Positions 31,731 through 49,273 of a DNA stretch of 64,000 nucleotides are shown in pieces. Under the pieces are notes generated by a model. That model was not told the DNA's origin. It worked only from the letters and a program-made list of their open reading frames with translations, and did not search any database. Source of the DNA: Mariniphaga sp. (GTDB lineage: Bacteria; Bacteroidota; Bacteroidia; Bacteroidales; Prolixibacteraceae); the NCBI GenBank assembly GCA_025355585.1, contig JANXZJ010000022.1, forward strand, positions 1 through 64,000, written 5' to 3'. Every line of letters begins with the position of its first letter. Positions within the stretch are counted from its first letter, which is position 1. A program made the translations under genes and the position numbers.

Positions 31731-33146
31731 TTACCAGATATATGTTCCGACAGCATCTTTTTCCAAAGAGGTGGAGCCTGTTTTGCCATTAAAACTGATA
31801 TTGAAAACCTTCTTTGCACCGCTGTTATTCTGAACGATCAGTATTTTTTTGCCCTCCGGATTCTTAAAGGCAACGTTGGGAAGGATTAATGATGAATTTG
31901 AATCTATTCGAACCGATCCCGGTCTTACAAATTTTGCGGCATGAGCCAGGATATAGTAGGCAGGATTTCGGGTTACTTTATTCCCGTCAATTGTGATGGT
32001 TCCGAGACATTGGTCGCAGCCGCCAATTGTATGCGGATCTTTATTCGGATCTGCTGCCAGGTTCCATTCTAATACAGTGCGGCACCAGTTACGTGTTCCA
32101 CCAATAATCAGTGTGCGAACATGCCATGCAAGATCGCCAGACATATTTCCCGGAGCCCCTACCCATTGTTCGGTGAAATAGAGGTTTTTATCAGGGAAGG
32201 CATCGTGCACCGGAGTCAGTGCATCGATTTTCCCTCCATAAAGATGAAAAGCCGAGCCATCGACATACTTTGAGGCTTCCGGATCTTTGAGTATTGTCAG
32301 CGGATAGTCGGGGCGGTCGGCGTTGTGATCGTAAACAATGATTTTTGTGGTAATATTTGCGGCTTTAAAAGTCGGTCCAAGGCTGCGTTTAATAAATAAA
32401 GCCTGGTCTTCGGCTGTCATATACATGCTTGGATTGTTCCCGGGGTGCAAGGGCTCGTTCTGGATCGTTATCGCATCAATTGTGATCCCTTCAGCTTTCA
32501 TTCCCTGGATGTACTTCACGAAATACTTCGCATAGGCATCAAAATACTCCGGTTTTAAGCTTCCGCCTTTCGAATTGTTGTTCGTTTTCATCCAGGTCGG
32601 CGCCGACCACGGAGAACCCATCAATTTTAGGTTGGGATTAATGGACAAAATCTCCTTCAGTACTGGAATCAGATCAACCTTGTCGGTATTTAGCGTAAAT
32701 TTCGCCATCGAAGGATCGGTTTCCCCGTCGGGAAGATCGTTATAAGAAAATACAGTAGGGTCTAAATCGGATGCGCCAATACTAATACGCAAATAGCTAA
32801 TCCCGATGTTATTACCATCGGTCGCGAATAATTCCTTCAGGATGGCGCTCCGGCTTGCGGCGTCCATCTTATGCAATAATGTGGCGCTTCCACCCGTCAG
32901 ACAATTTCCAAATCCATCGATGGTTTGAAACGTTTTCTTTGTATCAACAATGATCGTCTCACCCGGATTGGCTTGTTTTCCAAAGACCAGGTTTTCTTTC
33001 TGAAGCTGGAACATTACATTGGTTGAGGGACTTGTCATCCAGACTGCAATCCCTTTTTTCGCTTTATCCGCGGAAGTGACAATCCCTTTGCCGCTTAAGG
33101 AGGTGAAAAGGGTGATTAAAATAATGAATGTCTTTATCTTTTTCAT
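31731..33146 (-). CDS. GH30 glycoside hydrolase (copy 2)
   Basis: 471 residues from ATG 33146; the frame extends upstream into the other GH30 gene and that part is not plausible. N-terminal signal peptide (1-20). Motifs of GH30: FQTIDGFGNCLTGGSA, SYLRISIGASDLD, SPWSAPTWMKTN, acid/base E231 in QNEP, nucleophile E326 in FTEQ. This branch includes beta-1,6-glucanases and glucocerebrosidase-like enzymes. In a locus with GH16 and GH3 it should remove beta-1,6-linked glucose from laminarin-like glucan. No lipobox, so it is probably periplasmic or secreted, unlike copy 1. Confidence 0.88.
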   Translation of the reverse strand: MKKIKTFIILITLFTSLSGKGIVTSADKAKKGIAVWMTSPSTNVMFQLQKENLVFGKQANPGETIIVDTKKTFQTIDGFGNCLTGGSATLLHKMDAASRSAILKELFATDGNNIGISYLRISIGASDLDPTVFSYNDLPDGETDPSMAKFTLNTDKVDLIPVLKEILSINPNLKLMGSPWSAPTWMKTNNNSKGGSLKPEYFDAYAKYFVKYIQGMKAEGITIDAITIQNEPLHPGNNPSMYMTAEDQALFIKRSLGPTFKAANITTKIIVYDHNADRPDYPLTILKDPEASKYVDGSAFHLYGGKIDALTPVHDAFPDKNLYFTEQWVGAPGNMSGDLAWHVRTLIIGGTRNWCRTVLEWNLAADPNKDPHTIGGCDQCLGTITIDGNKVTRNPAYYILAHAAKFVRPGSVRIDSNSSLILPNVAFKNPEGKKILIVQNNSGAKKVFNISFNGKTGSTSLEKDAVGTYIW

Positions 33147-33162
33147 AATTTCAGATTGATTC

Positions 33163-34611
33163 TTATTGCCATGAATACGTTCCCACAGATCCGCCTTCCA
33201 ACGAGGTGGTGATCCACTTGCCATTGAATTTGATGTTAAACAACTCGGCGGCGGCTCCATCATTTTCGACGATCAGCACCTTTTTATCGCCCGGTATTTT
33301 AAAGGCGACCGTATTCAGATTGCCGCTTATATTACTGACAATCCGGACAGAACCAGCCGGAACAAATTTAGAAGCATGTGCAATGATGTAGTATCCCACA
33401 TTTCTTGTAAAACTATCACCTGAGTTAACTGTAATTGCACCTTTGCAGGTAGAACAGCCACCCGCAGTGTGCGGTTCGAAAGCGCCGTTATTCGCAAGAT
33501 TCCATTCAAGCGCCACTTTGCTCCAGTTACGCATCGAACCAATCACCACATTCTTTAAATGCCATTTTAAATCGCCGCTAAAACTTCCGGTTGAGGCCGT
33601 ATACTGTTCGGTGAAATAGACATTCTTATCCGGAAATGCATTATGAACCACCGACAACGCACTGATATCACCACCATATAAATGAAATGCAGAACCATCA
33701 ACGAAAGGTTTTGCGGCTGCGTCGTTTAATATTGCAATCGGATATTCAGGTTTGTCGCAATTGTGATCGTAAATAATAATCTTCGTGGAAATATTGGCTG
33801 CCTGAAAAGCTGGCCCCAGGTTTTCTTTAATGAAAACTGCCTGTTGTAAAGCCGTCATTAACATGCTCGGGTTATTCCCCGGATGCAAAGGTTCATTCTG
33901 AGGCGTTATTGCATTGATTGTAATGCCTTCGGCCTTCATCTTTTGAATATATTTCACGAAGTATTGAGCATAAACGCCATAATACTGCGGTTGAAGGCTT
34001 CCTCCCATGAAGTTGTTATTGTCTTTCATCCAGACCGGGGCCGACCAGGGTGTTGCAAGAATCTGGATGGAAGGATTTATCAGTAAAATCTCTTTTAAAA
34101 GCGGGATTAATCCGCTCATATCTGCAGATAGCTTAAAGTTGGTTAAGTTGACATCGGTTTGTCCGTATGGCATATCATCATAAGTATAGGGCATACTGTC
34201 GAGATCGGATGCACCAATGCCGACTCTTAAATAGCTTATTGAAATGGAAGTGGCACTTTTACCAAACAGCTCCTGTAACAATTCCTGTTTCTTTGCCACG
34301 CTTAATGAATTAATTACCTGCGCGCTTCCGCCTGTAAGTGTGTAACCAAAGCCATCAATCGTCTGAAATGTTTGCGTATCGTCGACGTCGATATTGGCAT
34401 ACATATTATAAGTCGTGCCAAAACCAAGCACAGTCGATTGTTTCTGAAGATTCACTGTCTGATCTCCTTTGGTTAACCAAAAATCCACATCATTTGTGAC
34501 AGGTACCGGAGGTACAACAGGTATTGGATCAACACTCGTTTTACCACATTTCACCTGGATGAGTGCAAGGGCTATCAGCAACAGAAACTTCATATTTAAT
34601 TTCACGACCAT
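33163..34611 (-). CDS. GH30 glycoside hydrolase (copy 1)
   Basis: 482 residues, alternative ATG six codons in (34593). The signal region ends LIQVKCGK (Cys22), a weak lipobox, followed by a Pro-rich linker, so it may be a surface lipoprotein. Catalytic motifs match copy 2: PWSAPVWMKDN, E240 in QNEP, E335 in FTEQ. The two copies are clearly homologous along the full length and lie 16 bp apart, which indicates tandem duplication followed by divergence of the N terminus. Likely beta-1,6-glucan activity; exo or endo mode is unknown. Confidence 0.88.
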   Translation of the reverse strand: MVVKLNMKFLLLIALALIQVKCGKTSVDPIPVVPPVPVTNDVDFWLTKGDQTVNLQKQSTVLGFGTTYNMYANIDVDDTQTFQTIDGFGYTLTGGSAQVINSLSVAKKQELLQELFGKSATSISISYLRVGIGASDLDSMPYTYDDMPYGQTDVNLTNFKLSADMSGLIPLLKEILLINPSIQILATPWSAPVWMKDNNNFMGGSLQPQYYGVYAQYFVKYIQKMKAEGITINAITPQNEPLHPGNNPSMLMTALQQAVFIKENLGPAFQAANISTKIIIYDHNCDKPEYPIAILNDAAAKPFVDGSAFHLYGGDISALSVVHNAFPDKNVYFTEQYTASTGSFSGDLKWHLKNVVIGSMRNWSKVALEWNLANNGAFEPHTAGGCSTCKGAITVNSGDSFTRNVGYYIIAHASKFVPAGSVRIVSNISGNLNTVAFKIPGDKKVLIVENDGAAAELFNIKFNGKWITTSLEGGSVGTYSWQ

Positions 34612-34625
34612 CGTTTTATTTAAAA

Positions 34626-36908
34626 CTAATTTTTAATTGCAAACTCACCATGCAAACCCTCGTCAGAATTTGGTCCGATCCAGACATCAAATTCACCGGG
34701 TTCGATCACATTTCCCTTTCCATTGAAAAATTCAAGCGAAGATGCCGGAAGTTCAAAAGTCACGCCAACGGTTTCGCGGCTTTTCAGGTGAATTCTTTTA
34801 AACCCCTTCAACTCTTTAACCGGGCGCGTAATACTACCGACCCTGTCGCGGATATAAAGCTGGACAATTTCATCAGCATCGACATTTCCGGCATTCAGAA
34901 TGGACGCCTTTACCGTCAGATTGCCATTCTTGCTCATTTCGGTTGATGAAAGCTTCAGGTCGCTGTATTTAAAGGTGGTATAACTTAAACCATATCCAAA
35001 CGGGAAGAGCGGTGTAAATCCGTAATCGAGGTGAAATGATTTATAACCCAGTGAGGCCTGACTATTTATGACCGGAATACTATCTATTGGTGTCCATGAT
35101 TTTGCATTGGCCGGACGACCTGTCATGTTGTGGTAATAGTAGAAGGGTATCTGACCTGAGCCTTTTACAAAGGTAACAGGAAGTTTCCCGGATGGCGACT
35201 CTTTGCCAAAAATCAGATCGGCCAATGCAGGGCCGGCCATCGATCCCCCATGCCATGCATAAAGGAGGGCATTTGACTTTTCAACAACCTTCCCAATCGC
35301 CAACGGACGGCCAGCCATAACTACAACAATCAATGGTTTTCCTGTTTTTGATAACGCTTCGATCAACTCCTCCTGAACTCCCGGAAGGTTGATCTCGCCA
35401 CGGCTCTGACCTTCGCCTGAAAGTATCCACTCTTCACCCGCAAAGAACAAGATCGCCTGTGATTTCTTTGCAGCAGCTATCGCTTCGGCAAACCCGGATT
35501 TGCTTTTATCGCGGCTATATTTCAGTCCGGCTGCAAAATTAACTTTCGGGTTGCCTAAAACCGCTTTAATGGCGGTCAGAGGAGTTACCGAATTCTCAGC
35601 TTTTCCGTCGAAAACCCATGTCCCGAGCTGATCGCGGGGTGCATCGGCCAATGGCCCGATAACAGCGACAGATGAAATACGGGCAGAGAGCGGCAGTGTA
35701 TTGGGATCATTCTTCAACATTACCGTACTTTGTCTTGCCACAATTCTTGCATGGTCTAAAAACTCAGGTGAGAGCATTTGTTTCTCCGCTTCGGGATTCA
35801 CATAGGGGTTTTCGAATAATCCCAGTTTAAACTTCAACGTTAATATATTTTTGACAGCCTCATCAATCATGGCCAGATCCACCTTTCCCTCATTAATAAG
35901 GGTTTTCAGGTTTTTCAGATAAGTAGTGCCCGACATTTCCATGTCAACACCGGCAGTAATTGCTTTTAATGCGGCTTCCTTTTCATCCGCGCAATAGCCA
36001 TGCGAGATCATTTCGGCTATTGAACCCCAGTCGCTTACAACCATGCCGTCATATTTCCACTCTTTGCGAAGTACCTGGCGCAACGTAAATTCGTTTCCTG
36101 AGGTTGGTACACCATTTAAGTCATTAAAGGCAGACATAAAGGTTAATGCACCTGCATCTTTAGCGGCCTTGAAAGGTTTAAGTACCACGTTCCGAAGCAT
36201 GGGCTCCGATATATAAGTTGTATTGTAATCGCGTCCTCCTTCGGCAAATCCGTAACCGACAAAATGTTTGGCACAAGCCGCAACGGCCTTTGGATCTGTT
36301 AGTTGTTCACCCTGGATACCTTCGACCATTGCCTTTGCAAAAGCAGAAGCAAGATAAGGATCTTCGCCGCAACCTTCAGCAATTCTTCCCCAGCGCGGAT
36401 CCCAGGTGATGTCGATCATAGGGGCAAAGGTCCATTTAATCCCCTGTGAAGAAGCTTCGATCGAAGAGATCCGGAATGCCTTTTTTACAATCTCCGGGTT
36501 CCATGTTGAGGCCATCGCCAGCGGAATGGGAAAGATGGTCCGGTAGCCGTGAATAACATCCCTTCCAATAATCAAAGGGATCTTCAGGCGGCTCTCTTCC
36601 ATTGCCAGTTTTTGCAATGCGTTTATTTTTTCGACACCGGATACATTTAGGAAGGAACCGTAATTTCCATTACGAACTGCTTTATTGATTTGATCAGCTG
36701 ACATAGCTATCGGATCAATCTGCGTCATTTGTCCTATTTTCTCTTCAAGCGTCATCTTCGAAAGCAAGCTTGTCACTTTGCTTTCAATATCGTTGTTCTT
36801 CGACTGAACCTGTTGGCACGAATAGTTTGAGATAGAAACAATTAATAAGAAGGCGAAGTAAAAGAACTTCAGCAATCGACGACCCGTTTTACTGAGATTA
36901 ATGGACAT
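34626..36908 (-). CDS. GH3 beta-glucosidase (BglX-like)
   Basis: 760 residues from ATG 36908; ATG 36923 is nearly as good, while the longer frame to 37001 would start inside a hairpin. Signal region ends SNYSC (lipobox-like). Motifs: WDPRWGRIAEGCGEDP, KHFVGYG, nucleophile D293 in VVSDWGS, GH3-C domain with the acid/base region, and a C-terminal fibronectin-III-like domain (FPFGYGLSYTTFKYS). It should hydrolyse gluco-oligosaccharides released by GH16/GH30 to glucose. Gap of 14 bp to the next GH30 gene. Confidence 0.9.
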   Translation of the reverse strand: MSINLSKTGRRLLKFFYFAFLLIVSISNYSCQQVQSKNNDIESKVTSLLSKMTLEEKIGQMTQIDPIAMSADQINKAVRNGNYGSFLNVSGVEKINALQKLAMEESRLKIPLIIGRDVIHGYRTIFPIPLAMASTWNPEIVKKAFRISSIEASSQGIKWTFAPMIDITWDPRWGRIAEGCGEDPYLASAFAKAMVEGIQGEQLTDPKAVAACAKHFVGYGFAEGGRDYNTTYISEPMLRNVVLKPFKAAKDAGALTFMSAFNDLNGVPTSGNEFTLRQVLRKEWKYDGMVVSDWGSIAEMISHGYCADEKEAALKAITAGVDMEMSGTTYLKNLKTLINEGKVDLAMIDEAVKNILTLKFKLGLFENPYVNPEAEKQMLSPEFLDHARIVARQSTVMLKNDPNTLPLSARISSVAVIGPLADAPRDQLGTWVFDGKAENSVTPLTAIKAVLGNPKVNFAAGLKYSRDKSKSGFAEAIAAAKKSQAILFFAGEEWILSGEGQSRGEINLPGVQEELIEALSKTGKPLIVVVMAGRPLAIGKVVEKSNALLYAWHGGSMAGPALADLIFGKESPSGKLPVTFVKGSGQIPFYYYHNMTGRPANAKSWTPIDSIPVINSQASLGYKSFHLDYGFTPLFPFGYGLSYTTFKYSDLKLSSTEMSKNGNLTVKASILNAGNVDADEIVQLYIRDRVGSITRPVKELKGFKRIHLKSRETVGVTFELPASSLEFFNGKGNVIEPGEFDVWIGPNSDEGLHGEFAIKN

Positions 36909-36957
36909 TTCTATATCTGCCATACCTTTTTGTATTTTAAGTTTTAAGTGAAAGAAA

Positions 36958-37018
36958 TTGGCCGGGTACGTCTTTAAAACATGGAAACCAAACACACCCA
37001 TAAAGACGATCCGGCCAA
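36958..37018 (-). terminator. Hairpin between GH16 and GH3 (terminator or attenuator)
   Basis: Arms TTGGCCGG-GTA-CGTCTTTA (36958-36976) and TAAAGACG-AT-CCGGCCAA (37001-37018): 16 base pairs with a small internal loop and a 24-nt apical loop. It begins five bases after the GH16 stop codon on the minus strand and is followed by ATTTCTTTC, a weak U-tract. Partial termination would lower expression of GH3-GH30-GH30 relative to the upstream genes. Confidence 0.7.
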
Positions 37019-37023
37019 ATCTA

Positions 37024-37911
37024 TTATTTTGCCTGATAAACCCTTACATAATCTACAACCATTGAACGCGGGAAAATTGTTTCATCAATGCCTTTCTGTC
37101 CTCCCCAGTTGCCACCAACAGCAACATTTAGCAACAAGTGAAACCGTTGATCGAAGGGCCAGACTTTAAAACCCGTACCTTCATTTTTGAATGTAAAATA
37201 TAGTGTGTCATCAATATAAATGCGATATTCATTGGCTTCCCATTCGAGCGCGTAAACATGAAAATTGGTGTAGCAGTCTGCCAAAGTTATTTTATTGTTC
37301 TTCTGAGTTCCTATCACATGATTGTAAGTTTCAGTGTGCGCTGAAGCAACAATCACATAAGGGTCGTATCCGACATTTTCCATAATGTCGATCTCGCCAC
37401 TGGCAGGCCATCCGCCATACTTCCAGTCAGTAGGCAACATCCAGATAGCAGGCCACATGCCACGGCCTTCGGGAAGTTTTGCCCGAACCTCAATTCGTCC
37501 ATATAACCAGTCGCCTTTCGATTTCGTGATCAGACGGGCAGAGGTGTATTTAAAACCCTGGTAATCTTCTTTGACGGCATTGATGTTTAAGAAGCCGTCT
37601 TTTACTTCCGCATTTTTTAGCCGGGCTTTTGTGTAAAACTGCTTTTCGTTGTTTCCCCAACCTGATGCATTGCCCTGGGTGTCGAAGCTCCACTTTGAGC
37701 TATCGGGCAGACCATTGTAATTAAACTCATCGCTCCAAACGAGTTTCAACTTGTTGTCAGCTTTTTCAGAAGAACCGGTTTTCCTTGATTCACGCTGATG
37801 GGTAATCGCCTTGTTTTGATTCGCACCTGCATTTTGCGCCTTTGAGATGAAGCCAAAGCCGGAAATTGCCAGCGTTAAGGAAATGCAGAGAACCTGTTGT
37901 TTCAGTGACAT
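37024..37911 (-). CDS. GH16 endo-beta-1,3-glucanase (laminarinase-like, copy 2)
   Basis: 295 residues with a signal peptide (1-25). The GH16 catalytic signature is GEIDIMENVG with E173 nucleophile, D175 and E178 acid/base. WGNNEKQFY, GRIEVRAKLPEGRGMWPAIWMLP and the C-terminal VVDYVRVYQ are typical of the laminarinase/lichenase branch. The substrate is a beta-1,3- or mixed beta-1,3/1,4-glucan. No accessory domain, so it is probably periplasmic or secreted. Followed by a hairpin. Confidence 0.92.
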   Translation of the reverse strand: MSLKQQVLCISLTLAISGFGFISKAQNAGANQNKAITHQRESRKTGSSEKADNKLKLVWSDEFNYNGLPDSSKWSFDTQGNASGWGNNEKQFYTKARLKNAEVKDGFLNINAVKEDYQGFKYTSARLITKSKGDWLYGRIEVRAKLPEGRGMWPAIWMLPTDWKYGGWPASGEIDIMENVGYDPYVIVASAHTETYNHVIGTQKNNKITLADCYTNFHVYALEWEANEYRIYIDDTLYFTFKNEGTGFKVWPFDQRFHLLLNVAVGGNWGGQKGIDETIFPRSMVVDYVRVYQAK

Positions 37912-37950: not shown

Positions 37951-39171
37951 CTATTGAAATACCCTTACGTAATCGACAAACATCCTTTGAGGAAACAGTG
38001 TGGTCGCATCGGGCGGACCGGGCCAGTCGCCGCCTGTTGCTACATTAAAGATAAAAAACTGATTCGCATTAAACGGATAATTTGCCGGACCGGAGTCGGT
38101 ATTTGTAACTGTCAGGCTCAATATATCATCAACATACCATTTAATTACATCCTGTGACCAAACAATACTATAAACGTGAAATTGCTGCGAGAAATCGCCC
38201 GAAGGTAAATTGTAGCTTGATCCTTTTGAGCCGTGTGTTCCGTCTCCGTTTTTCCAGTGCATTGTACCTGAAACCCTTCCCGGATAGGTGCCGACGAGTT
38301 CCATGATATCTATTTCGCCGCAGGCGGGCCAGCTCACCGAGGAAATGTTAGCGCCCAGCATCCACAATGCGGGCCAGATTCCTTTGCCAACAGGCAATTT
38401 GGCCCTGATATCAATGCGGCCAAATTTAAATGTCTTTTTATTCTGGGTTGTCAGTCTTGCCGAAGAATAGTTAAAACCACTGATCGCCTCTTTGCGGGCT
38501 TCGATGATTAAGTTCCCGTTCGACAGCAATGTGTTTTTCGGACTACTTGTATAATATTCCAGTTCATTATTTCCCCAACCGTTTCCTCCATTTCCAATTT
38601 CCTGGTTCCAAACACCTAAATCCAGATTAGTTCCGGAAAATTCATCGCTCCAGGCAAGTGTATATCCAGGATAGGTTAATGGTGTAGAATAACCTGTGTT
38701 ATCGGTTGGAAGGTATGTCCCGTCTTCGGTTAGAAGGGTGCCTTTTGCGGAGGTTGTTTTAATCGTACAGGACTTTGGATTACTTAACAGAACTGTAAAC
38801 TGCAAATTGTTTTGGCGCAAATTGGTAGGATCGCCTTTAATCTGGACATCAATTATTGCCTGTGTTTTGCCGGCAGGAATCGTCAAAGTTCCCGAAGCAG
38901 AAACAAAATCTTTGGGCGAAAGTGCCGTTCCATCAACTAAAGAATAGTCAATTGAAACTGCATTTGTCGAAGTTTTATTACTATTTATATAAAACTGCAT
39001 CGTTGTGTTAGCGACAGTTATTGGTTGGCTTACATCCAGAACGCTTATCTCCGGAACTGTTGCAGGCAGAGGAACGGGCGTATCGCCACCTTTTTGACAC
39101 GAGAATAAAATTGCGCAAAAGGCAAGAATTAAAATGTTGGAGGATATTTTTCTTTGATGCATAAAAACCAT
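37951..39171 (-). CDS. Surface GH16 beta-glucanase with Calx-beta-like domain (copy 1)
   Basis: 406 residues. Lipoprotein signal ending ILFSC (Cys25), then a linker and a Calx-beta-type immunoglobulin-like domain (about 40-150; NAVSIDYSLVDGTAL, FVSASGTLTIPAGKT). Catalytic GH16 domain 165-406 with CGEIDIMELVG (E286, D288, E291), WGNNELEYY and the C-terminal MFVDYVRVFQ. It is the likely cell-surface endo-enzyme that makes the first cuts before SusC/SusD import. First gene after an internal hairpin. Confidence 0.9.
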   Translation of the reverse strand: MVFMHQRKISSNILILAFCAILFSCQKGGDTPVPLPATVPEISVLDVSQPITVANTTMQFYINSNKTSTNAVSIDYSLVDGTALSPKDFVSASGTLTIPAGKTQAIIDVQIKGDPTNLRQNNLQFTVLLSNPKSCTIKTTSAKGTLLTEDGTYLPTDNTGYSTPLTYPGYTLAWSDEFSGTNLDLGVWNQEIGNGGNGWGNNELEYYTSSPKNTLLSNGNLIIEARKEAISGFNYSSARLTTQNKKTFKFGRIDIRAKLPVGKGIWPALWMLGANISSVSWPACGEIDIMELVGTYPGRVSGTMHWKNGDGTHGSKGSSYNLPSGDFSQQFHVYSIVWSQDVIKWYVDDILSLTVTNTDSGPANYPFNANQFFIFNVATGGDWPGPPDATTLFPQRMFVDYVRVFQ

Positions 39172-40240: not shown

Positions 40241-41335
40241 TTAATTAGTTAATCTAATATTGTCCACATAGATAACGGCGCCCGCGCCATCTGATGAATC
40301 ATTGAAACGCAAAACAAGCTGTCCGAATTTCGCTGAAACTGGTATTGCAGCAATTGTGCTGAAATCAAATACCAATTCTTCCCATGCACCAGATGTTGTA
40401 AAAGCCACTTTGAGTACTGCAACTCCATTTGCCGGGCTACCACCAAAAGCAGCTTCCAGTTCCACATTCAGTTTTTTACCAACGAGAGCAGGATCAGGGT
40501 TATAAGCCAACATTTTGATTTTTTTACCTGAAGCGAAGCTAATCGGGATATCCAAAGGACTGTATGTTCCACTCCAGCCTTCGCTGCCTCTGGTGAATTT
40601 TCCCACCTTGGCACTGGTATTCAGACCTGTTGCATTAGGATTTGCTACTGTGGCAAATAACTGTCCGGAACCAAAAGTGCCGAAGAAGTAATTCATCGTA
40701 GCAATTTCAAAGGTTGCAGGGAGTCCAAAGAGTGTTTTAATTGATTGAATGGTAGCGGCACCACCACTTAGGGCCACGACTTTAAGATCAAAAGGTCCTC
40801 CGTCCGGATAGGCATGTGCAGGAAGTTCCTGGCCTACTGCCATTGGAGTCCCTACTTCGCCGGCAACATCACCATAATAGACTAAGAAAGAATTAGCATA
40901 TAAAGCGGTAGCTGAAACTTTTATCGCTCCTACACCAGAGGTGGTGACAAGCAGCTTTTCAGGCGCTCTGTAGGTAACTTTCAACGGATAGGTGGCAGTC
41001 GTTTCGTGACCAGCAATATCTGCAGTCACAATCGATACGGTATAGTCACCTTCCGGATAAACATGTGTCGCACTGGCACCTGCCAATACTGTTGCAGAAG
41101 CGCCTGATCCGGTACCATGTCCGAAACTAATTACAAAGGAAGTTACACCGTTGCCGGTAGGGGTTATTTTTACCTTTCCTGAATTATCGTTGCTGATGTC
41201 AAAGATTTTATTGACATTTCCTGAGACCGCGTTATCTAAAAATTTCAGGTCCTGATCAATACCGTCTTTTTGGGTACAGCCCACAACAACAAACAGCATA
41301 AATATAAAGCTGTAGATAAATGTTAATTTCTTCAT
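40241..41335 (-). CDS. PKD-domain surface glycan-binding lipoprotein candidate
   Basis: 364 residues, lipobox VVVGC (Cys20). Two PKD-like domains follow (VKITPTGNGVTSFVISFGHGTG to VYPEGDYTVSIV; then VSATALYANSFLVYYGD to AYPDGGPFDLKVV), then a C-terminal jelly-roll-like domain (about 205-364) ending AVIYVDNIRLTN, the pattern of carbohydrate-binding modules. It fits a SusE/SGBP-type protein on the cell surface. Immediately follows susD (14 bp). Confidence 0.8.
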   Translation of the reverse strand: MKKLTFIYSFIFMLFVVVGCTQKDGIDQDLKFLDNAVSGNVNKIFDISNDNSGKVKITPTGNGVTSFVISFGHGTGSGASATVLAGASATHVYPEGDYTVSIVTADIAGHETTATYPLKVTYRAPEKLLVTTSGVGAIKVSATALYANSFLVYYGDVAGEVGTPMAVGQELPAHAYPDGGPFDLKVVALSGGAATIQSIKTLFGLPATFEIATMNYFFGTFGSGQLFATVANPNATGLNTSAKVGKFTRGSEGWSGTYSPLDIPISFASGKKIKMLAYNPDPALVGKKLNVELEAAFGGSPANGVAVLKVAFTTSGAWEELVFDFSTIAAIPVSAKFGQLVLRFNDSSDGAGAVIYVDNIRLTN

Positions 41336-41349
41336 ATTTCTAAGACTTA

Positions 41350-42864
41350 TTAATTATAGTTTGGATTTTGTACCAATTTAGTGCCTTGTAATTCCCTGTA
41401 AGGAATTGGGAAAACTTCGTCTTTACCGGCAACAAAACCTTTGCTTGCCAATTTAGCAGCTGCATCACCCCATCTTACCAAATCGAAAAAGCGGTAACCT
41501 TCGCCAGCCAGTTCCAATCTTCTTTCTGCTTTAATGGCAGCAAGATTAACTGTTACAGAAGGTAATCCAACTCGTTTTCTTACAGCATCAAGTAATGCCT
41601 GAGCCCTTGCTCCGGTTGCTCCCAGTGCTTCAGCTTCCAACAAGTAGGTATCAGCTAAACGGATGGCGTAAGTATCTTGCTTGTAATTTAAAACCTGGTC
41701 ACCCGCGCCTGTGGACACATCAGCCATTCTTGGTAAAAATTTATTTAAGAAATATCCTAAATCCTGGTATCCGGGAATAAAATCAGCTTTACCTGCTGCT
41801 TTTAATGTTTTTAAATCAAATACAGTTGCCTGGAATCTTGGGTCTGTTTTAATGACATCGTAGAAATCCTGGGTAAAGGTGCTGAAACACCATCCGGAAG
41901 GTAAATCAGGTGCCGTTGAACCTGCAGGTTTTGAATAACTTCTTGGTCCTACCATTACATTTACTGAATTGCCCTCATCACTGCCACTACCCCAGTTTCC
42001 CCAACCAGAACTTCCGATACTACTGTGACAAACTTCAATGATGGCTTCTGTATTGAATTTATTGCTGACCACCCAAAGATCACTGAAACTTGTTAATAAA
42101 CGGTAGCCATATTGACTTGTACCGCCCGGGGTTCCATTTACCTCGGCAAGTTGAGTCGCTGCAAGTGCATTTTTACCATCATACAGATAAACTTTGCCAA
42201 GCAAAGCCTGTGCAGCTCCTTTGGTCAGACGTCCGCCTTCGGATGCAACAGGCACTGTTGCAGGTAAATCGACAATTGCTTCTGTGAGATCCTTTTCTAT
42301 TTGAGTATAAACAGCTGTTGGAGTGGCCTGAACTACATCATACATATTTGTTGCAGTCAAAGGATCCAATAGTAAAGGGATGTTCTTAAACATTATTACA
42401 AGGTTGAAGTAATAATAAGCACGTAATGCCTTTGCCTCAGCTCCAAATCTTGCTTTTAAGGTAGCATCCATCGGAACATTTGTCAATTTTGACAACAATG
42501 TATTTGCCCTGAAAATACCCTGATAATAGTCGCTCCAGAAGCTCTGAGGCATTATGATTGCGTTTAATGTAAATGTATTAAACCCTTGTATGCCTGCACC
42601 ATCTGTTGAACCGCCACCACCAGCAACCTGGTCATCAGATCCGGCGTTCATCATGGTGATCATGTTTTCAAAACCACCTGAATTTTTGCGCATTACGTCA
42701 TATACTCCAACCAAACCGGCGAAGGCCTGATCTTTGTTTGAGTAATAGTTGGCCGAGAGGAACTGCCCTTTTGGTTGAACCTCAATAAACCCTTTGTCGC
42801 AGGATACCAATGAAATCATTAAGGCAACTGCTATAAATAAGTAACTACTTACTTTTTCTTTCAT
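41350..42864 (-). CDS. SusD/RagB-family outer-membrane lipoprotein
   Basis: 504 residues. Lipobox LVSC (Cys22) then the family start DKGFIEVQPKGQFLSANYYSN. N-terminal TPR-like helices (AKALRAYYYFNLVIMFKNIPL) and the C-terminal SusD block (AIKAERRLELAGEGYRFFDLVRWGDAA) are complete. It forms the lid over the SusC barrel and binds the oligosaccharide. Placed 13 bp after susC. Confidence 0.95.
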   Translation of the reverse strand: MKEKVSSYLFIAVALMISLVSCDKGFIEVQPKGQFLSANYYSNKDQAFAGLVGVYDVMRKNSGGFENMITMMNAGSDDQVAGGGGSTDGAGIQGFNTFTLNAIIMPQSFWSDYYQGIFRANTLLSKLTNVPMDATLKARFGAEAKALRAYYYFNLVIMFKNIPLLLDPLTATNMYDVVQATPTAVYTQIEKDLTEAIVDLPATVPVASEGGRLTKGAAQALLGKVYLYDGKNALAATQLAEVNGTPGGTSQYGYRLLTSFSDLWVVSNKFNTEAIIEVCHSSIGSSGWGNWGSGSDEGNSVNVMVGPRSYSKPAGSTAPDLPSGWCFSTFTQDFYDVIKTDPRFQATVFDLKTLKAAGKADFIPGYQDLGYFLNKFLPRMADVSTGAGDQVLNYKQDTYAIRLADTYLLEAEALGATGARAQALLDAVRKRVGLPSVTVNLAAIKAERRLELAGEGYRFFDLVRWGDAAAKLASKGFVAGKDEVFPIPYRELQGTKLVQNPNYN

Positions 42865-42877
42865 GTCTGTCTATTTT

Positions 42878-45800
42878 TTAAAATTGTAATTGAACGCCAA
42901 GCATAAATGAACGTGCCTGAGGATATACTCCCTTATCTATCCCAAATACACCACCGCCAATTTCAGGATCATATCCTGTATATTTGGTCAGGGTTAACAA
43001 ATTTTCAGCAGATACATAAAAACGCAATTTATTAGCTCCGATTTTACTTACCAGCGAATTAGGTAATGAATAACCAAACTGAAGTACTTTAAGACGGATA
43101 TAATTCCCTTTTTCTAAGTAAAAATCAGACATTTTGCCAAAGTTTTCGTTGGTGTCGTTACTTGTCAGGCGAGGATAGGTATTTGAAGTTCCATCACCTG
43201 TCCAACGACTTAAAGCTACAGTTTGCCAGTTTGAATTACTGATATCTAAACGGCGTAAACCCTGGAATATTTTGTTGCCTGCTGCACCCTGAGCAAATGC
43301 CATTAAGTCAAAGCTCTTAAAATCAAGATTCAATGTTAAACCAAAAGTAAACTTTGGAATACTGCTACCCAAAAAGGTCTTGTCTAAATCAGAAATCTTA
43401 CCATCTCCATCGGCATCTACCCAACGGAAATCGCCTGGTTTTGCAAGTGGCTGAATAAGGCCGCCGGTCGAATTGGTATAGGCGTTAACCTCTGCAACAT
43501 TTTGAAATATCCCTGCAGTTTTATAGCCATAAAATGAGTTGTATGATTGTCCAACCTGAGTTCTTGTTACAGCACCCATTGATTGAAAAGAAGCATCACC
43601 TGTAATGTAATTAGCATCTGAGGCTACATAGGTAACTTCGTTTTTCAGGTAAGCAACATTACCATTGACACCAAAATTAAGCTCGCCTAATTTTTTACGG
43701 TAACTGATTTCAACTTCTAATCCACTGTTTGCCATATCAGCGATATTGCCCACAGGAGATGAAGAGACACCAACATAACCAGGAATTGTAACTGGTCGCA
43801 GAATACCCGTTGTTTTTTTCTGATAGTAGTCAACTGTTAAGTTGATCGTATTCAGCAACAAAGCTTCAAAACCTATGTTTGCCTGTGATGTCTGTTCCCA
43901 ACGCAGGTCGGGATTATCAAGCGAGGCTGGAGCATACCCGGTGGTTATACTTCCTGTATTTCCCACTGTATAGTTGAATCCACCACCTACTGTGGCAAGA
44001 TATCCAAAATCACGAATGGCATCATTCCCTACAATACCATAACCGCCTCTGATTTTTAACGTATTTATGATATCATTGGTTTTCCAGAATCCTTCTTTTG
44101 AAACTACCCAGCCTAAAGAAAAGGATGGAAATACTCCGAATTTGTGATTTGCTCCAAATCTTGAAGAACCATCACGACGATAAATACCTGTGAATAAGTA
44201 TTTTTCTTTGTAGTTGTAGTTTAAACGCGAAAACAAGGAAGTTAATTTATGTTCGGTATTATCCCAGGCTCCTCCAACTCTGTTGGTTGCATCAGGGATG
44301 TTAAAACTAAACGAAGCATCTTTGTAACTAGTAATTGGTAAATCATAAAGAGTTACATTCGAACCTCCGCCGATATTATCAACATAGGCTGCCTGACCCA
44401 ATAATAAATTGAAACTGTGGTCGCCTACTGTTTTGGAATATGTGATTGTATTTTCCACGTTCCAGTTAAAACTTTTTTGATTTTGCTGGTAATAACTATT
44501 TTTAAGCACCTGGTTGGTAGCATTTAAATAATAAACAGGATTAAAAGCCTGGTTACCCCAGTAAGCTAATTTTGCTCCAACGGATGATTTTACAACAAGA
44601 TCTTTTGTGATAGCCGCTTGCAAATAGGCGTTTCCTACAAAATTGTCAGACCAGTCGTAAGCTCCTAATCTTGTTTGAATATAAGCAAGGGGATTTGTCA
44701 TTTCCTGACCAACAATGGATGAAATGCCATAAGGGTTACCACTTGCATTTCTCAATACCGGATTCACACTATAAGGTGCTGCACCAGCAACTGCAGGATC
44801 TGTAACAACCAATGGAGTTGTTGGATCAAGGTTTATTGCGGAACTTAAAGGTCCACCGTATTCACTGTTTGTGTTTCCGATACCCAATTGCTTTTGATGC
44901 GTATATCCAACCGTTTGTCCAAAAGTGAATATTTTAGATATTTTATGGGTAGAGTTTAAGCGCATGTTCTTTTGCGTGAAATTTGAGATTTCTGAAGCAA
45001 CAATCCCTTGTTGGTCCTGAATACCAAATGACAGGTAAAAAGTGGATTTATCGTTACCCCCACTCATACTTAACTCATGAGAATAGCGGTTTGCACTGTT
45101 ATTGAAAATGGCTTTTTGCCAATCGGTGCCAACACCAAGAGCACCAAGGTTAGAAAACATTGTATTTCCGCCACCAGCAACCGATCGCTCATTTAATAAA
45201 GCCCCATATTGAGTTGCATTTAAAAGGTTTAACATCTTGGCAGGTGCCGAAACGCCATAAAAACCATTATAGCTCACGCTTAATTTTCCTGCAACCCCTT
45301 TTTTGGTCGTAACCATTATAACACCGGTTGCAGCGCGAGTTCCATAAATAGCAGCTGATGCAGCATCCTTTAAAACTTCAATTGATTCAATATCTGATTG
45401 ATTAAGGAAGCCCATTCCACCCGCATCAACTACAACACCGTCAACAACCCAAAGGGGATTATTGCCGCCATCGCCAAAGGTTGTTACACCACGGACACGA
45501 ATCGTTGCCGCAGAGCCTGGCTGGCCAGAAGTTGCAGCGACAGTCACACCCGAAACACGGCCCTGAAGCGCCTGTTCAACACGTCCTGGTGAAACTTTTT
45601 CGAGATCTTTCGATTTGATGCTTGAAATCGCACCTGTTACGACACTCTTCTTTTGGGTACCATAACCGACAACCACAACCTCGTCAATACCAACTGTTTC
45701 GATTTTAAGCGCAACATTGATCACAGGATTCTGACCGATCGTAATGTCCTGGGAAATCATTCCGATAAATGAAAATGTTAGAATTTTTGAATTAGAAGGT

Positions 45801-45988
45801 ACTGTAAGATTGTACTTTCCGTCAATGTCGGTAACTGTACCTGTTGTTGTTCCTTTTACAATAACCGTGACACCCGGAATGGGTTGCCTGTCATCGACTG
45901 AAGTCACAACACCTTTTACTTGCATACCCTGTCCAAATCCGGACAATGAGCATACAATGACCAAGAGAACTAAAATTGTTTTTTTCAT
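42878..45988 (-). CDS. SusC/RagA-family TonB-linked outer-membrane transporter
   Basis: 1036 residues. Signal peptide 1-21; carboxypeptidase-regulatory-like domain about 23-105; TonB-box-like region VDEVVVVGYGTQKKSVVTGA; plug domain with the SusC signature (VRGVTTFGDGGNNPLWVVDG, then DAASAAIYGTRAATGVIMVTT); then a 22-strand barrel ending with an aromatic residue (GVQLQF). It imports oligosaccharides held by SusD. First structural gene of the PUL, with a 310-bp leader region after the regulator. Confidence 0.97.
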   Translation of the reverse strand: MKKTILVLLVIVCSLSGFGQGMQVKGVVTSVDDRQPIPGVTVIVKGTTTGTVTDIDGKYNLTVPSNSKILTFSFIGMISQDITIGQNPVINVALKIETVGIDEVVVVGYGTQKKSVVTGAISSIKSKDLEKVSPGRVEQALQGRVSGVTVAATSGQPGSAATIRVRGVTTFGDGGNNPLWVVDGVVVDAGGMGFLNQSDIESIEVLKDAASAAIYGTRAATGVIMVTTKKGVAGKLSVSYNGFYGVSAPAKMLNLLNATQYGALLNERSVAGGGNTMFSNLGALGVGTDWQKAIFNNSANRYSHELSMSGGNDKSTFYLSFGIQDQQGIVASEISNFTQKNMRLNSTHKISKIFTFGQTVGYTHQKQLGIGNTNSEYGGPLSSAINLDPTTPLVVTDPAVAGAAPYSVNPVLRNASGNPYGISSIVGQEMTNPLAYIQTRLGAYDWSDNFVGNAYLQAAITKDLVVKSSVGAKLAYWGNQAFNPVYYLNATNQVLKNSYYQQNQKSFNWNVENTITYSKTVGDHSFNLLLGQAAYVDNIGGGSNVTLYDLPITSYKDASFSFNIPDATNRVGGAWDNTEHKLTSLFSRLNYNYKEKYLFTGIYRRDGSSRFGANHKFGVFPSFSLGWVVSKEGFWKTNDIINTLKIRGGYGIVGNDAIRDFGYLATVGGGFNYTVGNTGSITTGYAPASLDNPDLRWEQTSQANIGFEALLLNTINLTVDYYQKKTTGILRPVTIPGYVGVSSSPVGNIADMANSGLEVEISYRKKLGELNFGVNGNVAYLKNEVTYVASDANYITGDASFQSMGAVTRTQVGQSYNSFYGYKTAGIFQNVAEVNAYTNSTGGLIQPLAKPGDFRWVDADGDGKISDLDKTFLGSSIPKFTFGLTLNLDFKSFDLMAFAQGAAGNKIFQGLRRLDISNSNWQTVALSRWTGDGTSNTYPRLTSNDTNENFGKMSDFYLEKGNYIRLKVLQFGYSLPNSLVSKIGANKLRFYVSAENLLTLTKYTGYDPEIGGGVFGIDKGVYPQARSFMLGVQLQF

Positions 45989-46135
45989 AAATTTGTAATT
46001 AAATTTAAGAATTGTTAATGAAAATTGACAACTGATAAATAACTGACTTTAGGATTTGTTAACAATGATTTAAGAATTATTAATCCAGAATCAGATTTTA
46101 AGTCGCAAAATAAGTTATAACAATTTGATAAAAAA

Positions 46136-46165
46136 CAAAATTAAGTACAACATTAATACATCAAA
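46136..46165 (-). promoter_or_regulatory. Candidate susC promoter
   Basis: On the minus strand TTTG (46165-46162), 18 bp, then TAATTTTG (46143-46136), matching the two Bacteroidota elements. It would give a leader of about 140 nt before the susC ATG. The -33 TTTG is part of one of the TTTGATGTA direct repeats. Confidence 0.5.
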
Positions 46166-46198
46166 TAGAAAATGGCAGTACATCAAAAATACATCAAA
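46146..46198 (-). promoter_or_regulatory. Direct repeats upstream of susC, candidate operator
   Basis: Three exact copies of TTTGATGTA on the minus strand at 46198-46190, 46187-46179 and 46165-46157, offset by 11 and 22 bp, with a weaker copy AATGTTGTA at 46154-46146 another 11 bp on. All are on nearly the same face of the helix, overlap the -33 element and stop just before the -7 box. The adjacent LuxR-type regulator is the obvious candidate to bind them. The rest of the 310-bp AT-rich gap (45989-46298) shows nothing else. Confidence 0.55.
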
Positions 46199-46298
46199 AT
46201 GAATCTATAGTTCACGTTAATTGAATGTTAGATTAAATTAATATAGTTTAATAATACACGTAACGGGAATTTTTGATACTATAACTTTAAAATTGACA

Positions 46299-49214
46299 TT
46301 AAAGGTCAATTATTAAGCTGGTGAGGTTGGTATCACGATCAATGTTAAGTTTTTTACGTACACGGTAGCGACATATCTCCACTCCCCGAATTGAGATATT
46401 CATTAAGGGGGCGATCTCCTTGGTCGAGATGTTCATCCGTAAGTAGGCACATAAACGGAGTTCCTTTGGTGTTAAAGTTGGGAATCTTGCTTTAAGACGG
46501 TTTAAAAAATCTTCATGTACATCATCAAAAGCCGTCTCGAATACTTCCCATTGTTTGTTGTGATCAATATCTTTATCTATTTTACTCATCAGGGATGAGA
46601 TTTTTTCTTTCGACTGTTCATCAGTAGATGACATTCTGGTTTTTTCGAGTTCCTCTTTAATTTTGGCCAGAAACTTATTCTTTCGGATCAGGTCCATGGT
46701 CTGATTGGCAAGTTCTTTATCCCGATGGATCATTTCAGTTTTAAGCTTTTCGTTTTTAAGCTTAATAATTTTCTTTTCAGATAAAGAAACCTGCTGAATA
46801 TAATCGCGTTCCTTCTGCCTGTATGCTTTCAGATGTTTTAACCGCTCTTTTCTCTTCGATATTTCAATCCTTTTAATAAACAACCATGTAGAAAAAAGAC
46901 CGGAAATTACCAAAAGGATAATGTAACATATGATCGCAATTGCGGATCTGTACCAAGGAGGCCTGACAGTAAACGGAAGCTCATCGACACTACTTTCAAC
47001 TCCAAGCGAATTGCGTGCTTTGACACTAAAAGTATAATTTCCTTCAGGTAGAAGTGCGAATTCGACCGACGAAGAACTGCTCCAGATTGACCAATCGTTA
47101 TTCAATCCTGCTAATTTGAAACTGTATTCAACACTTTCAGGGGTGTCGTAAATAGGCGTGGAAAAGAAAAACTTAAACGAGTTTTTGGGATATCTGAAGT
47201 AGTATATTCCATGAGCCGGAAGATCATTTGCACGGTGATTATTCCCGTAAAAGAAGGTGCTGTCAATGTTAGAGGCAACAGCTTTAGTTATGAACGTCGA
47301 AAATTCGGGATTGAAACTAAAGTGCGCAGTGGGCGAATAATGAGCGAAACCATCCTCTGTGCCAAAAAACAGGTGATCGTCCGAATAAGGATAGACAGAT
47401 TCGAACCCGCTGATAAATTTACTGTTCAGCAATATAAACGGAAAAGTAATGTGCTTTAAACTACCACCCTCCTGCACACGGAATACTCCGGCTTTGGTGT
47501 TTGCCTGGTACCATGCCACATACCAGATATTGCCGTTCTTATCCTCTTTGATGTACGAAAAGTCAGTTACCGGGCTTAACAGCTGATTGAAATATACAGA
47601 TTTTTCAAAGCGCTCATTTTGTGAGTTGTACTGATATATTCCAACATTGGTGGTGAAAATAATTTGGTCTTTAATTTTAAAAACGTTCAGGTTATAATTC
47701 GTAGGCAGTCCGTCACTGGTGGTGTAATACCTAAAAGACTTAATGCTCTCAAGGTTACTTCCAAAGGTGATTTTATAGATCCCTTTGAATCCATGACTCA
47801 TCCAGATATTGCCTTCGCCGTCCTCTTCGAATACCCTGAATGATTCGTTAAATCCCTTCACCTTATCGACATAATTCCAGGTGCCATTTCCCTTTTTAAA
47901 GAGAATCATTCCGCTGTAAGTTCCTCCAATTAAGTAATTGGGGAACCTTTTCAGTATATGATACTTCCACCCTCCCGGAATTTTGCTGATTTGCCGGGCT
48001 GTTTCACCTTCAATCACAAATGTACCATTGTTATGCCCGCAAATTAATACGCCATCCTGCACACCAAGGTACCAAACTTGTCCCGATGTATTTGGTATCA
48101 TCTTCAAAGTACTGTTTTGATCACTTCCATTCCAGTCCTTTACGAACAGACCCTGATTAGTTCCAAGATACAGCTTTCCCTGATGAATAATAGAGGTATA
48201 GCCTGTTCCAATCCCTTCCGATTGCTTCAAAAAAGTGATAGGCGAATTAATATTGATGAAGTCAATCCCGTTATCGAGCCCAAGCCATAAATCACCAGAC
48301 CTGTCGGCAAATACCTTAAGTACTGTGTTATTCTGAAGTCCTTTTTTCCGGTTAATATGCTGAACAACCTCTCCGTTTGCTTTAATTATAATGATCCCAT
48401 CCTGGATGGTACCGAAGGCATAATAATGATCCTGAAGAAGTATAGCACTAAATATCTGGTTCTTTTTTAAGTATTCATTTACAGGAACTTTCCACTCTTC
48501 GAGTTTCCCTTCTTTATAAATGAATACCCCTTTGGTCAAAGTAGAAATTAGCAATTCGTCAGCACTGGCATAAGGGAGGATTGACCAAATCTCCTCTCCT
48601 TTTAAAACCTGGCACCCGGGTAATGACACAAGTTTACCTCTTACCAATTCAAAGAGGCCCTTTTCAATGTCGTTAAAGTACAATCTTTCGTTGACTTTAT
48701 AGGAATTTTGAAACCGGACAGGCGCTTTTATGACCGTAATAGAGGTATCATTGTCATAGACAAAAGCGCTTGAGTAGGATTGAAAAATAATTTTTCCTTC
48801 AAATGATGTGATGTTCCAGATATCATCAAAATTCTGATATTCAGCAGGTATGTATTTTTTGAGTGATTTGAATTCCAATTTCCCGTTACTTCTAAAAACC
48901 ATCTTGCCTAATTCATTGTAGGCTCCAACATAAATGCTTTTGTTTTCACCGATATAAACAGATCGGGTGATTGATGAATTAGGCATTTTATACAAGTGCC
49001 ACACGATCCCATCAAAAGCAACAAGTCCTTCATTATTTGCGAAATACATAAATCCCCTTTGATCCTGCGCGATCGACCAGTTTTGAGTACCGGCTTTGTA
49101 CTCTCGCTTGGGAAAATTCCTTATAAAAGGAATGCCGATGTTTTTGATCTGGGAATATCCAAAATTGAAAAACAGCAGGAAAAAGAAAAATGCAAGGAGA
49201 TTTTTTTTTGTCAT
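46299..49214 (-). CDS. PUL sensor-regulator: two-component-type propeller, Y_Y_Y domain, LuxR HTH
   Basis: 971 residues from ATG 49214 (a GTG lies five codons upstream). Signal/anchor at the N terminus; about 700 residues of ligand-binding propeller repeats (WSIAQDQRGFMYFANNEGLV, DRSGDLWLGLDNGIDFI, DGEGNIWMSHGFKGIYKI); a Y_Y_Y domain (VEYSFKLAGLNNDWSIWSS to GNYTFSVKARN); one membrane helix; a cytoplasmic coiled coil of about 100 residues; and a LuxR-type helix-turn-helix (LTPKELRLCAYLRMNISTKE). No kinase or receiver is present, so periplasmic glycan binding must act on DNA directly. Lies upstream of susC in the same direction. Confidence 0.88.
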   Translation of the reverse strand: MTKKNLLAFFFFLLFFNFGYSQIKNIGIPFIRNFPKREYKAGTQNWSIAQDQRGFMYFANNEGLVAFDGIVWHLYKMPNSSITRSVYIGENKSIYVGAYNELGKMVFRSNGKLEFKSLKKYIPAEYQNFDDIWNITSFEGKIIFQSYSSAFVYDNDTSITVIKAPVRFQNSYKVNERLYFNDIEKGLFELVRGKLVSLPGCQVLKGEEIWSILPYASADELLISTLTKGVFIYKEGKLEEWKVPVNEYLKKNQIFSAILLQDHYYAFGTIQDGIIIIKANGEVVQHINRKKGLQNNTVLKVFADRSGDLWLGLDNGIDFININSPITFLKQSEGIGTGYTSIIHQGKLYLGTNQGLFVKDWNGSDQNSTLKMIPNTSGQVWYLGVQDGVLICGHNNGTFVIEGETARQISKIPGGWKYHILKRFPNYLIGGTYSGMILFKKGNGTWNYVDKVKGFNESFRVFEEDGEGNIWMSHGFKGIYKITFGSNLESIKSFRYYTTSDGLPTNYNLNVFKIKDQIIFTTNVGIYQYNSQNERFEKSVYFNQLLSPVTDFSYIKEDKNGNIWYVAWYQANTKAGVFRVQEGGSLKHITFPFILLNSKFISGFESVYPYSDDHLFFGTEDGFAHYSPTAHFSFNPEFSTFITKAVASNIDSTFFYGNNHRANDLPAHGIYYFRYPKNSFKFFFSTPIYDTPESVEYSFKLAGLNNDWSIWSSSSSVEFALLPEGNYTFSVKARNSLGVESSVDELPFTVRPPWYRSAIAIICYIILLVISGLFSTWLFIKRIEISKRKERLKHLKAYRQKERDYIQQVSLSEKKIIKLKNEKLKTEMIHRDKELANQTMDLIRKNKFLAKIKEELEKTRMSSTDEQSKEKISSLMSKIDKDIDHNKQWEVFETAFDDVHEDFLNRLKARFPTLTPKELRLCAYLRMNISTKEIAPLMNISIRGVEICRYRVRKKLNIDRDTNLTSLIIDL

Positions 49215-49273
49215 ATCAGATAAAACCACTTAAATCAACTGCAGCGCAACAATGTTCGATTAAAGGGTTGCGA

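Follow-up and report, generated by a model that had tools for sequence, protein, structure and literature searches.

A phased direct-repeat array upstream of susC in Mariniphaga sp., the probable operator of a membrane-anchored LuxR-type regulator

Ravcheev et al. (2013, PMC3878776) predicted the operators of four SusR-like regulators as direct repeats whose two boxes are separated by 67 or 77 bp. The same paper, in the sections considered here, gives an average spacing of about 21 bp for the predicted motifs of hybrid two-component systems (HTCSs), and describes SusR-like proteins as poorly studied and their sites as uncharacterised. The mechanism of SusR is called undefined in a passage of another paper (PMC6874557). 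In the covered parts of a survey of transmembrane transcription regulators, these proteins are reported to be enriched in Bacteroidota, with Y_Y_Y among their commonest non-DNA-binding domains, and no operator for them is given (PMC10269533). A 2026 paper (PMC13188888) mentions, in a passage that likewise gives no operator, that many laminarin-type clusters begin with LuxR genes; its abstract names laminarin as the main source of energy, by abundance, in the marine environment.

The window analyzed here is a 64,000-bp stretch of Mariniphaga sp. DNA, in which a repeat array lies between a regulator gene and susC (Table 1). Pfam recognizes only Reg_prop, Y_Y_Y and GerE in the regulator, the GerE match scoring 24.7 bits against a cut-off of 23.5. 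Neither a kinase nor a receiver domain was found by Pfam, and the term hybrid-like, used in the first-pass annotation, is therefore inexact. The sensor part matches in sequence the solved hybrid-system sensors 3v9f and 4a2l, and the last domain aligns with FixJ 1x3u (E 0.007). The C-terminal part shows a weak NCBIfam match to the BT3442 family (30.4 bits, cut-off 940). The listed start of the regulator is GTG (49229-49214), with an ATG five codons in and then a signal-peptide-like stretch; this downstream ATG is the likelier start. With susC, susD, PKD-like, GH16, GH3 and GH30 genes downstream of the array, the locus looks like a beta-1,3/1,6-glucan (laminarin-type) locus.

Table 1. Features of the array, its promoter and the surrounding locus in the window.
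Feature	Positions	Strand	Basis or remark
Proposed binder, Reg_prop/Y_Y_Y/transmembrane/coiled coil/LuxR-type HTH regulator	46299..49229	minus	Pfam; membrane segment and coil by eye
TATAGTA element, distal	46277..46283	minus	conserved columns in 13-promoter alignment
GTGTA element, distal	46255..46259	minus	conserved columns in 13-promoter alignment
Half-site 1 (distal pair)	46190..46198	minus	TTTGATGTA, exact; kept in 13-promoter alignment
Half-site 2 (distal pair, +11)	46179..46187	minus	TTTGATGTA, exact; kept in 13-promoter alignment
Half-site 3 (proximal pair, +33)	46157..46165	minus	TTTGATGTA, exact; kept in 13-promoter alignment
Half-site 4 (proximal pair, +44), weaker	46146..46154	minus	AATGTTGTA, 11 bp past half-site 3
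Probable -7 box TTATTTTG	46106..46113	minus	5 of 6 letters of TAnnTTTG; 32 bp past half-site 4
susC (TonB-dependent receptor), first gene of proposed target operon	42878..45988	minus	Pfam
susD	41350..42864	minus	Pfam
Protein with sub-threshold PKD match, possible surface glycan-binding protein	40241..41335	minus	Pfam, 19.9 bits, cut-off 27
Two GH16 genes	37951-39171, 37024-37911	minus	Pfam
GH3	34626-37001	minus	Pfam
Two GH30 genes	33163-34611, 31731-33263	minus	Pfam

The repeat array and the core promoter

The four half-sites start at offsets 0, 11, 33 and 44, all on the susC strand, and their core is TTGATGTA. The three exact 9-bp repeats at offsets of 11 and 22 bp and the weaker fourth repeat, which the first-pass annotation had reported, were confirmed as three copies of TTTGATGTA and one AATGTTGTA. 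The latter shares six of nine letters with TTTGATGTA, and most aligned orthologs carry TTGTTGTA or ATGTTGTA at its position. The 310-bp intergenic region is 79% AT, and 223 of 5,000 dinucleotide shuffles of it contained some exact 9-mer in three copies, whereas the 0/11/33 phasing of exact 9-mers appeared in none of the 5,000. With up to one mismatch allowed, TTTGATGTA has 24 matches in the window against 28.6 expected; thus, single copies are not rare and the unusual feature is the phasing. The four-site pattern with up to three mismatches occurs only once in the genome (4.09 Mb, 84% complete), as the window array itself, and no second array was found in the window or elsewhere in this 84%-complete genome. 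The sole other two-mismatch pair in the genome (C183) was rejected as an extra operator, as it lies within an ORF.

Two distal elements, GTGTA and TATAGTA, are located just past the stop codon of the regulator gene, and their GTAs are 22 bp apart. The TATAGTA element reads TGTAGTA in most aligned orthologs. The GTGTA element is 65 bp upstream of the array, a distance resembling the 67 bp of the SusR-like motifs. It is possibly a weak auxiliary half-site, and the GTGTA/TATAGTA stretch a putative auxiliary operator.

Primary-sigma promoters of Bacteroidota have the -7 consensus TAnnTTTG, according to the relevant passage of PMC7366714. The octamer TTATTTTG is the probable -7 box of the susC core promoter. 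TTAnTTTG is invariant downstream of the array in the alignment of 13 orthologous promoters. The tabulation of -7 boxes covered 68 promoters with a strong pair and counted octamers with five or six of the six letters. A TAnnTTTG-like octamer was found exactly 32 bp past the last half-site in 36 of the 68 promoters, compared with a mean of 1.0 and a maximum of 5 at other distances. Removal of the genus of the window and its nearest relatives left 23 of 52, with a mean of 0.77 elsewhere. Perfect TAnnTTTG octamers at 32 bp were seen in only five of the 68, and 32 of the 68 lack a five-of-six box at that distance.

With the -7 box 32 bp past the last half-site, the core promoter follows immediately downstream of the array, and the two do not overlap. 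The claim that the array overlaps a -33 element and abuts the -7 box was not supported, as the conserved -7 box is TTATTTTG, 32 bp beyond. TTTG at 46165-46162 and a perfect TAATTTTG at 46143-46136 are present as letters in the window. They were rejected as the promoter, as TAATTTTG is not kept in the orthologs. It stands at offset 2 from the array, where a -7-like octamer occurs in 4 of the 68 promoters, versus 36 at 32 bp. In the 13 orthologs, the region around 19 bp before the -7 box has no conserved TTTG (-33) and is only T-rich.

Conservation and recurrence across Bacteroidota

Homology search with the regulator covered 61 genomes, 56 of which have a match at E 0.001 or better. The genes of the closest homologs (L033 onward) are followed by the same array as far as about 45% protein identity, while none was seen by eye in some more distant homologs (e.g., L056 and L058). 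In the 13 aligned orthologous promoters, the half-sites are nearly unchanged and the flanks have diverged. The expectation in the first-pass annotation that the repeats are kept upstream of orthologous susC genes was thus borne out by the homologs and by the alignment.

Spacing was analyzed with near-identical 9-mers. Dinucleotides were kept in the shuffles for these offsets and for the window phasing; shuffles of two-base blocks, a cruder control, were used for the 95- and 87-promoter sets, the 40-promoter test and the TPR-LuxR test described below. Among 22 co-directional promoters, offset 11 was found in 17, offset 22 in 16 and offset 33 in 17, with a shuffle maximum of 5-6. Weaker excesses were seen at offsets 20 (9), 44 (8), and 12 and 23 (7 each), each with a maximum of 6, and offsets 10, 21, 32 and 34 were not above the shuffle maximum. 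In the 19 promoters of a looser paralog group, offset 11 leads with 9 (shuffle maximum 5), offset 8 follows with 8 (maximum 5), and offset 33 is at background, with no enrichment. Offset 20 reached 6 in this group (maximum 3) and is above the shuffles in both groups.

The scan of named genomes was reduced to the best 80 loci, which include Prolixibacteraceae, Marinifilaceae, Flavobacteriaceae, Cyclobacteriaceae, Sphingobacteriaceae, Chitinophagaceae and Saprospiraceae. These and the earlier loci provided 95 regulator-susC intergenic regions, and 87 remained after the removal of eight near-duplicates. As in the window, susC is alongside the regulator in relatives, though not in all of them, and regulators without susC within 900 bp (one set) or 1,200 bp (the other set) were left out. 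In 78 of the 87 promoters, the 11-bp pair scored higher than 95% of block shuffles, with a matrix trained on the same data, and the other 9 were below the threshold despite this training. The 19 of the 87 promoters without a strong pair were left out of the -7, second-pair and base-residue counts. The second half-sites are degenerate in Flavobacterium.

The main spacings are 11 and 33 in both the 22 co-directional promoters and the 95 promoters, and minor peaks at offsets 67 and 78 (9 counts each) were seen in the latter. Among the 48 promoters with a second pair, the pair-to-pair spacing is not universal: 34 promoters have 32-34 bp, 11 have 52-55 bp and three have 42-43 bp. Half-sites are oriented on the susC strand in 264 cases and on the opposite strand in 69. 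An inverted-repeat operator was rejected, as no inverted spacing peak was observed.

In a cleaner test, the window motif by itself was used on 40 promoters (loci L110 and above) that are not among the 22 co-directional ones and belong to regulators about 33-42% identical to that of the window. A TGATGTA pair with one mismatch allowed in each half-site was found at 11 bp in 18 and at 33 bp in 12 of the 40, and block shuffles gave the 11-bp pair a mean of 0.16 and a maximum of 2.

When both strands of the best 80 loci were counted, the intergenic DNA between regulator and susC (15.6 kb) contained 40 such pairs, and the other 905 kb contained 30, of which some are likewise in promoter position close to the regulator. 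Five genes after such pairs were submitted to Pfam; they include a GH16 gene (L117) and genes for PKD-domain proteins (L112 and L116), and no Pfam family was found for those at a second place in L117 and at L119. The pairs before PKD-protein, GH16 and family-less genes near the regulator suggest regulons with several promoters per locus. Pairs or arrays before other genes near the regulator were observed at L116 8135-8186, L117 9569-9618 and 4735-4785, and L159 4832-4903.

A scan of the 61 genomes for the exact pattern TGATGTAN4TGATGTA, blind to genes, revealed 28 matches versus 2 for the reversed control. Twenty of the 28 are located between a regulator of the Reg_prop/Y_Y_Y/LuxR class and the next downstream gene; in one of these cases (L197), the contig ends within the regulator ORF, which is 777 bp away from the pair. 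Two (both in L180) are upstream of susC in a 2.4-kb stretch without such a regulator, one (L184) is flanked by a GH3 and a Reg_prop gene, one (L179) is flanked by an MFS gene and an ORF to which Pfam assigns no family, and four are within ORFs. The two exact pairs in L180 (1501-1560) are 42 bp apart, and the regulator may be encoded elsewhere. When the gap was varied from 0 to 26, 181 matches were obtained, 28 of them with gap 4; among the matches listed, 13 have gap 15, 11 of which represent the 22-bp step within arrays. The 11-bp spacing is enriched genome-wide, and the place next to the regulator is the stronger evidence. The first-pass annotation had named random positions genome-wide as an outcome that would speak against an operator; instead, the exact pairs are mostly beside such regulators.

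Recognition helix and other LuxR-output classes

Half-sites can be divided into T-type, which are TGATGTA-like, and G-type, which are TGAGGTA, TGATGAG and similar; these classes were set after the sites were inspected. Regulators with Asn at residue 952 of the recognition helix are associated with nine G-type promoters, one mixed and no T-type promoter, while those with Ile, Leu, Val, Thr or Glu are associated with 53 T-type, four mixed and no G-type promoters. One of the 68 regulators was dropped from this comparison for length. In the maximum-likelihood tree of the 67 regulators, built with the columns of the trait itself left in, a minimum of two changes is required for Asn-952: one for a clade of eight and one for a clade of two members, of which one is on a long branch. 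In the FixJ alignment, residues 952 and 953 fall on V and H of VEVH. In base-residue association, 952 and 953 are equalled by many columns that are not part of the recognition helix. Since shared ancestry inflates the other columns, the claim on residue 952 rests on repeated origin and not on association ranking. With a matrix biased to the T-type, none of the ten Asn-952 promoters showed a second pair that scored above 5 at a distance of 32-34 bp. The recognition helix and the half-site change together.

Among the TPR-LuxR loci, L207 has a clear four-site array with the same spacing and other letters (ATTGTGAAA type), with a z of 4.9 and a score of 36 versus at most 29 for neighbouring spacings. 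The array of L209 is borderline, with a z of 4.9 on the gene strand and a score of 34 versus 33 at neighbouring spacings. By hand count, each has a -7-like octamer at 32 bp. The stretches concerned are L207 3289-3640 and L209 605-1104, and TPR-LuxR regulators have the C-terminal coil and HTH in common with the regulator in the window. Nine of the 11 TPR-LuxR loci lack a four-site array at z above 3; wider searches for this class yielded few loci. Downstream of a conserved PAS-LuxR gene, TTAGGTT-type elements were noticed by eye in L229, L237, L238, L240-L247 and L250, where they precede a gene with a similar-looking start.

The 11-bp pair, the whole-turn spacing and the 32-bp rule may represent a phylum-wide grammar of the coiled-coil/LuxR output module, independent of the sensor, be it a propeller, a TPR or perhaps a PAS domain; a few residues of the recognition helix, here 952 and 953, would then determine the half-site letters. 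This generalization is tentative and somewhat more likely to fail than to hold; outside the propeller class its support is thin, and the L209 array is borderline. If it is true, the targets of such Bacteroidota regulators would be readable from DNA alone and re-targetable by residue swaps. Regulon assignment in uncultured genomes also benefits from a DNA pattern by which a regulator and its target are found at once. As a similar layout recurs before related sugar-uptake genes across many Bacteroidota, control sites of a barely studied regulator class are now predictable from DNA. The analysis yields a concrete predicted operator, a single-base position rule and a residue-to-base prediction, and short DNA probes suffice for their tests.

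Proposed mechanism and comparison with known systems

The array appears to be a real, functional-looking feature and is probably the operator of a little-studied regulator class. Very probably, judging from the sequence comparisons, it binds two dimers of the adjacent regulator head-to-tail and serves to activate the glucan operon. The regulator is predicted to be a one-component, membrane-anchored sensor, with a periplasmic propeller and Y_Y_Y, one membrane span, a cytoplasmic coiled coil and a LuxR-type HTH. The four half-sites would constitute two head-to-tail pairs, with steps of 11 bp inside a pair and 33 bp between pairs, and would point to approximately the same side of the helix. A beta-glucan fragment sensed by the regulator would be the trigger, upon which two dimers would bind cooperatively, each to its own pair, and retain RNA polymerase at a weak promoter without an evident conserved -33 box. 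The susC and susD genes and the GH16, GH3 and GH30 genes would then be switched on. The geometry, the conservation, the link to regulator genes, the preferred distance to the -7 box and the joint change of recognition helix and half-site come from computation, and we infer binding, one dimer per pair, the ligand, co-transcription and an activating instead of a repressing role. Inverted repeats are the usual sites of LuxR-type HTH dimers; head-to-tail binding is therefore unusual for such a domain and calls for proof. The first-pass annotation had proposed a binding site for several regulator subunits, with the LuxR-type membrane regulator encoded upstream as the probable binder, and this proposal agrees with the conservation and with the 20 of 28 exact pairs beside regulators.

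The same regulator could instead bind mainly as a repressor, with glucan-free protein blocking RNA polymerase. In the genome of the window, TTTG inside the array and the perfect TAATTTTG beside it would suit this role, but TAATTTTG is absent from the aligned orthologs, and its offset of 2 is seldom used by -7-like octamers in the 68 promoters. Moreover, the array ends 32 bp upstream of the conserved -7 box, an activator-like position, and SusR itself is described as an activator in the section on it (PMC3878776). Repression as the main role is accordingly improbable.

It is still less probable that the array is bound by another factor, such as an AraC-type HTCS or a global factor. The predicted motifs of AraC-type HTCSs are direct repeats as well, spaced by 21 bp on average in the part of that study concerned (PMC3878776), whereas 11 and 33 are the main spacings here, 20 of the 28 exact genome-wide pairs adjoin a regulator of the Reg_prop/Y_Y_Y/LuxR class, and the half-site letters shift with the recognition helix of the adjacent type of regulator. 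The least credible explanation is that the repeats are functionless products of chance or mutation (slippage, AT-rich drift). An AT content of 79% and the 223 shuffles with a threefold 9-mer are in its favor, but none of the 5,000 shuffles reproduced the 0/11/33 phasing, and such products would not account for array letters kept amid diverged flanks in 13 orthologs or for the recurrence across the phylum. An activating operator of the adjacent regulator is thus the preferred reading.

Literature search, with subscription papers and preprints largely outside its coverage, found no published description of an 11/33-bp array, a 32-bp rule or a residue-952 link for Y_Y_Y-LuxR regulators. SusR-like regulators of Bacteroides are alike in being membrane-spanning single polypeptides with a periplasmic sensor and a cytoplasmic DNA-binding end, often encoded beside susC and susD, and their predicted operators are direct repeats on one face of DNA, as far as the relevant sections of PMC3878776 describe them. 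The regulator in the window shares with this class the membrane anchor, the lack of a phosphorelay and the susC/susD neighbours. The SusR-like boxes are 67 or 77 bp apart in those sections, whereas 11-bp pairs, mostly 33 or about 53 bp apart, are seen here. AraC-type HTCSs have a related periplasmic propeller/Y_Y_Y sensor, control polysaccharide loci and have direct-repeat motifs; the regulator in the window differs in having no kinase or receiver and a LuxR-type HTH instead of AraC. With NarL/FixJ response regulators it shares the GerE-type DNA-binding domain (Pfam; FixJ 1x3u alignment), but the half-sites here are direct, as reflected in the 264 versus 69 by strand. PhoB boxes and MalT sites are direct repeats in helical phase, like the window array. 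PhoB is a winged-helix protein, and MalT has a LuxR-type HTH but is soluble and ATP-dependent. The window array differs from both in its letters and promoter geometry.
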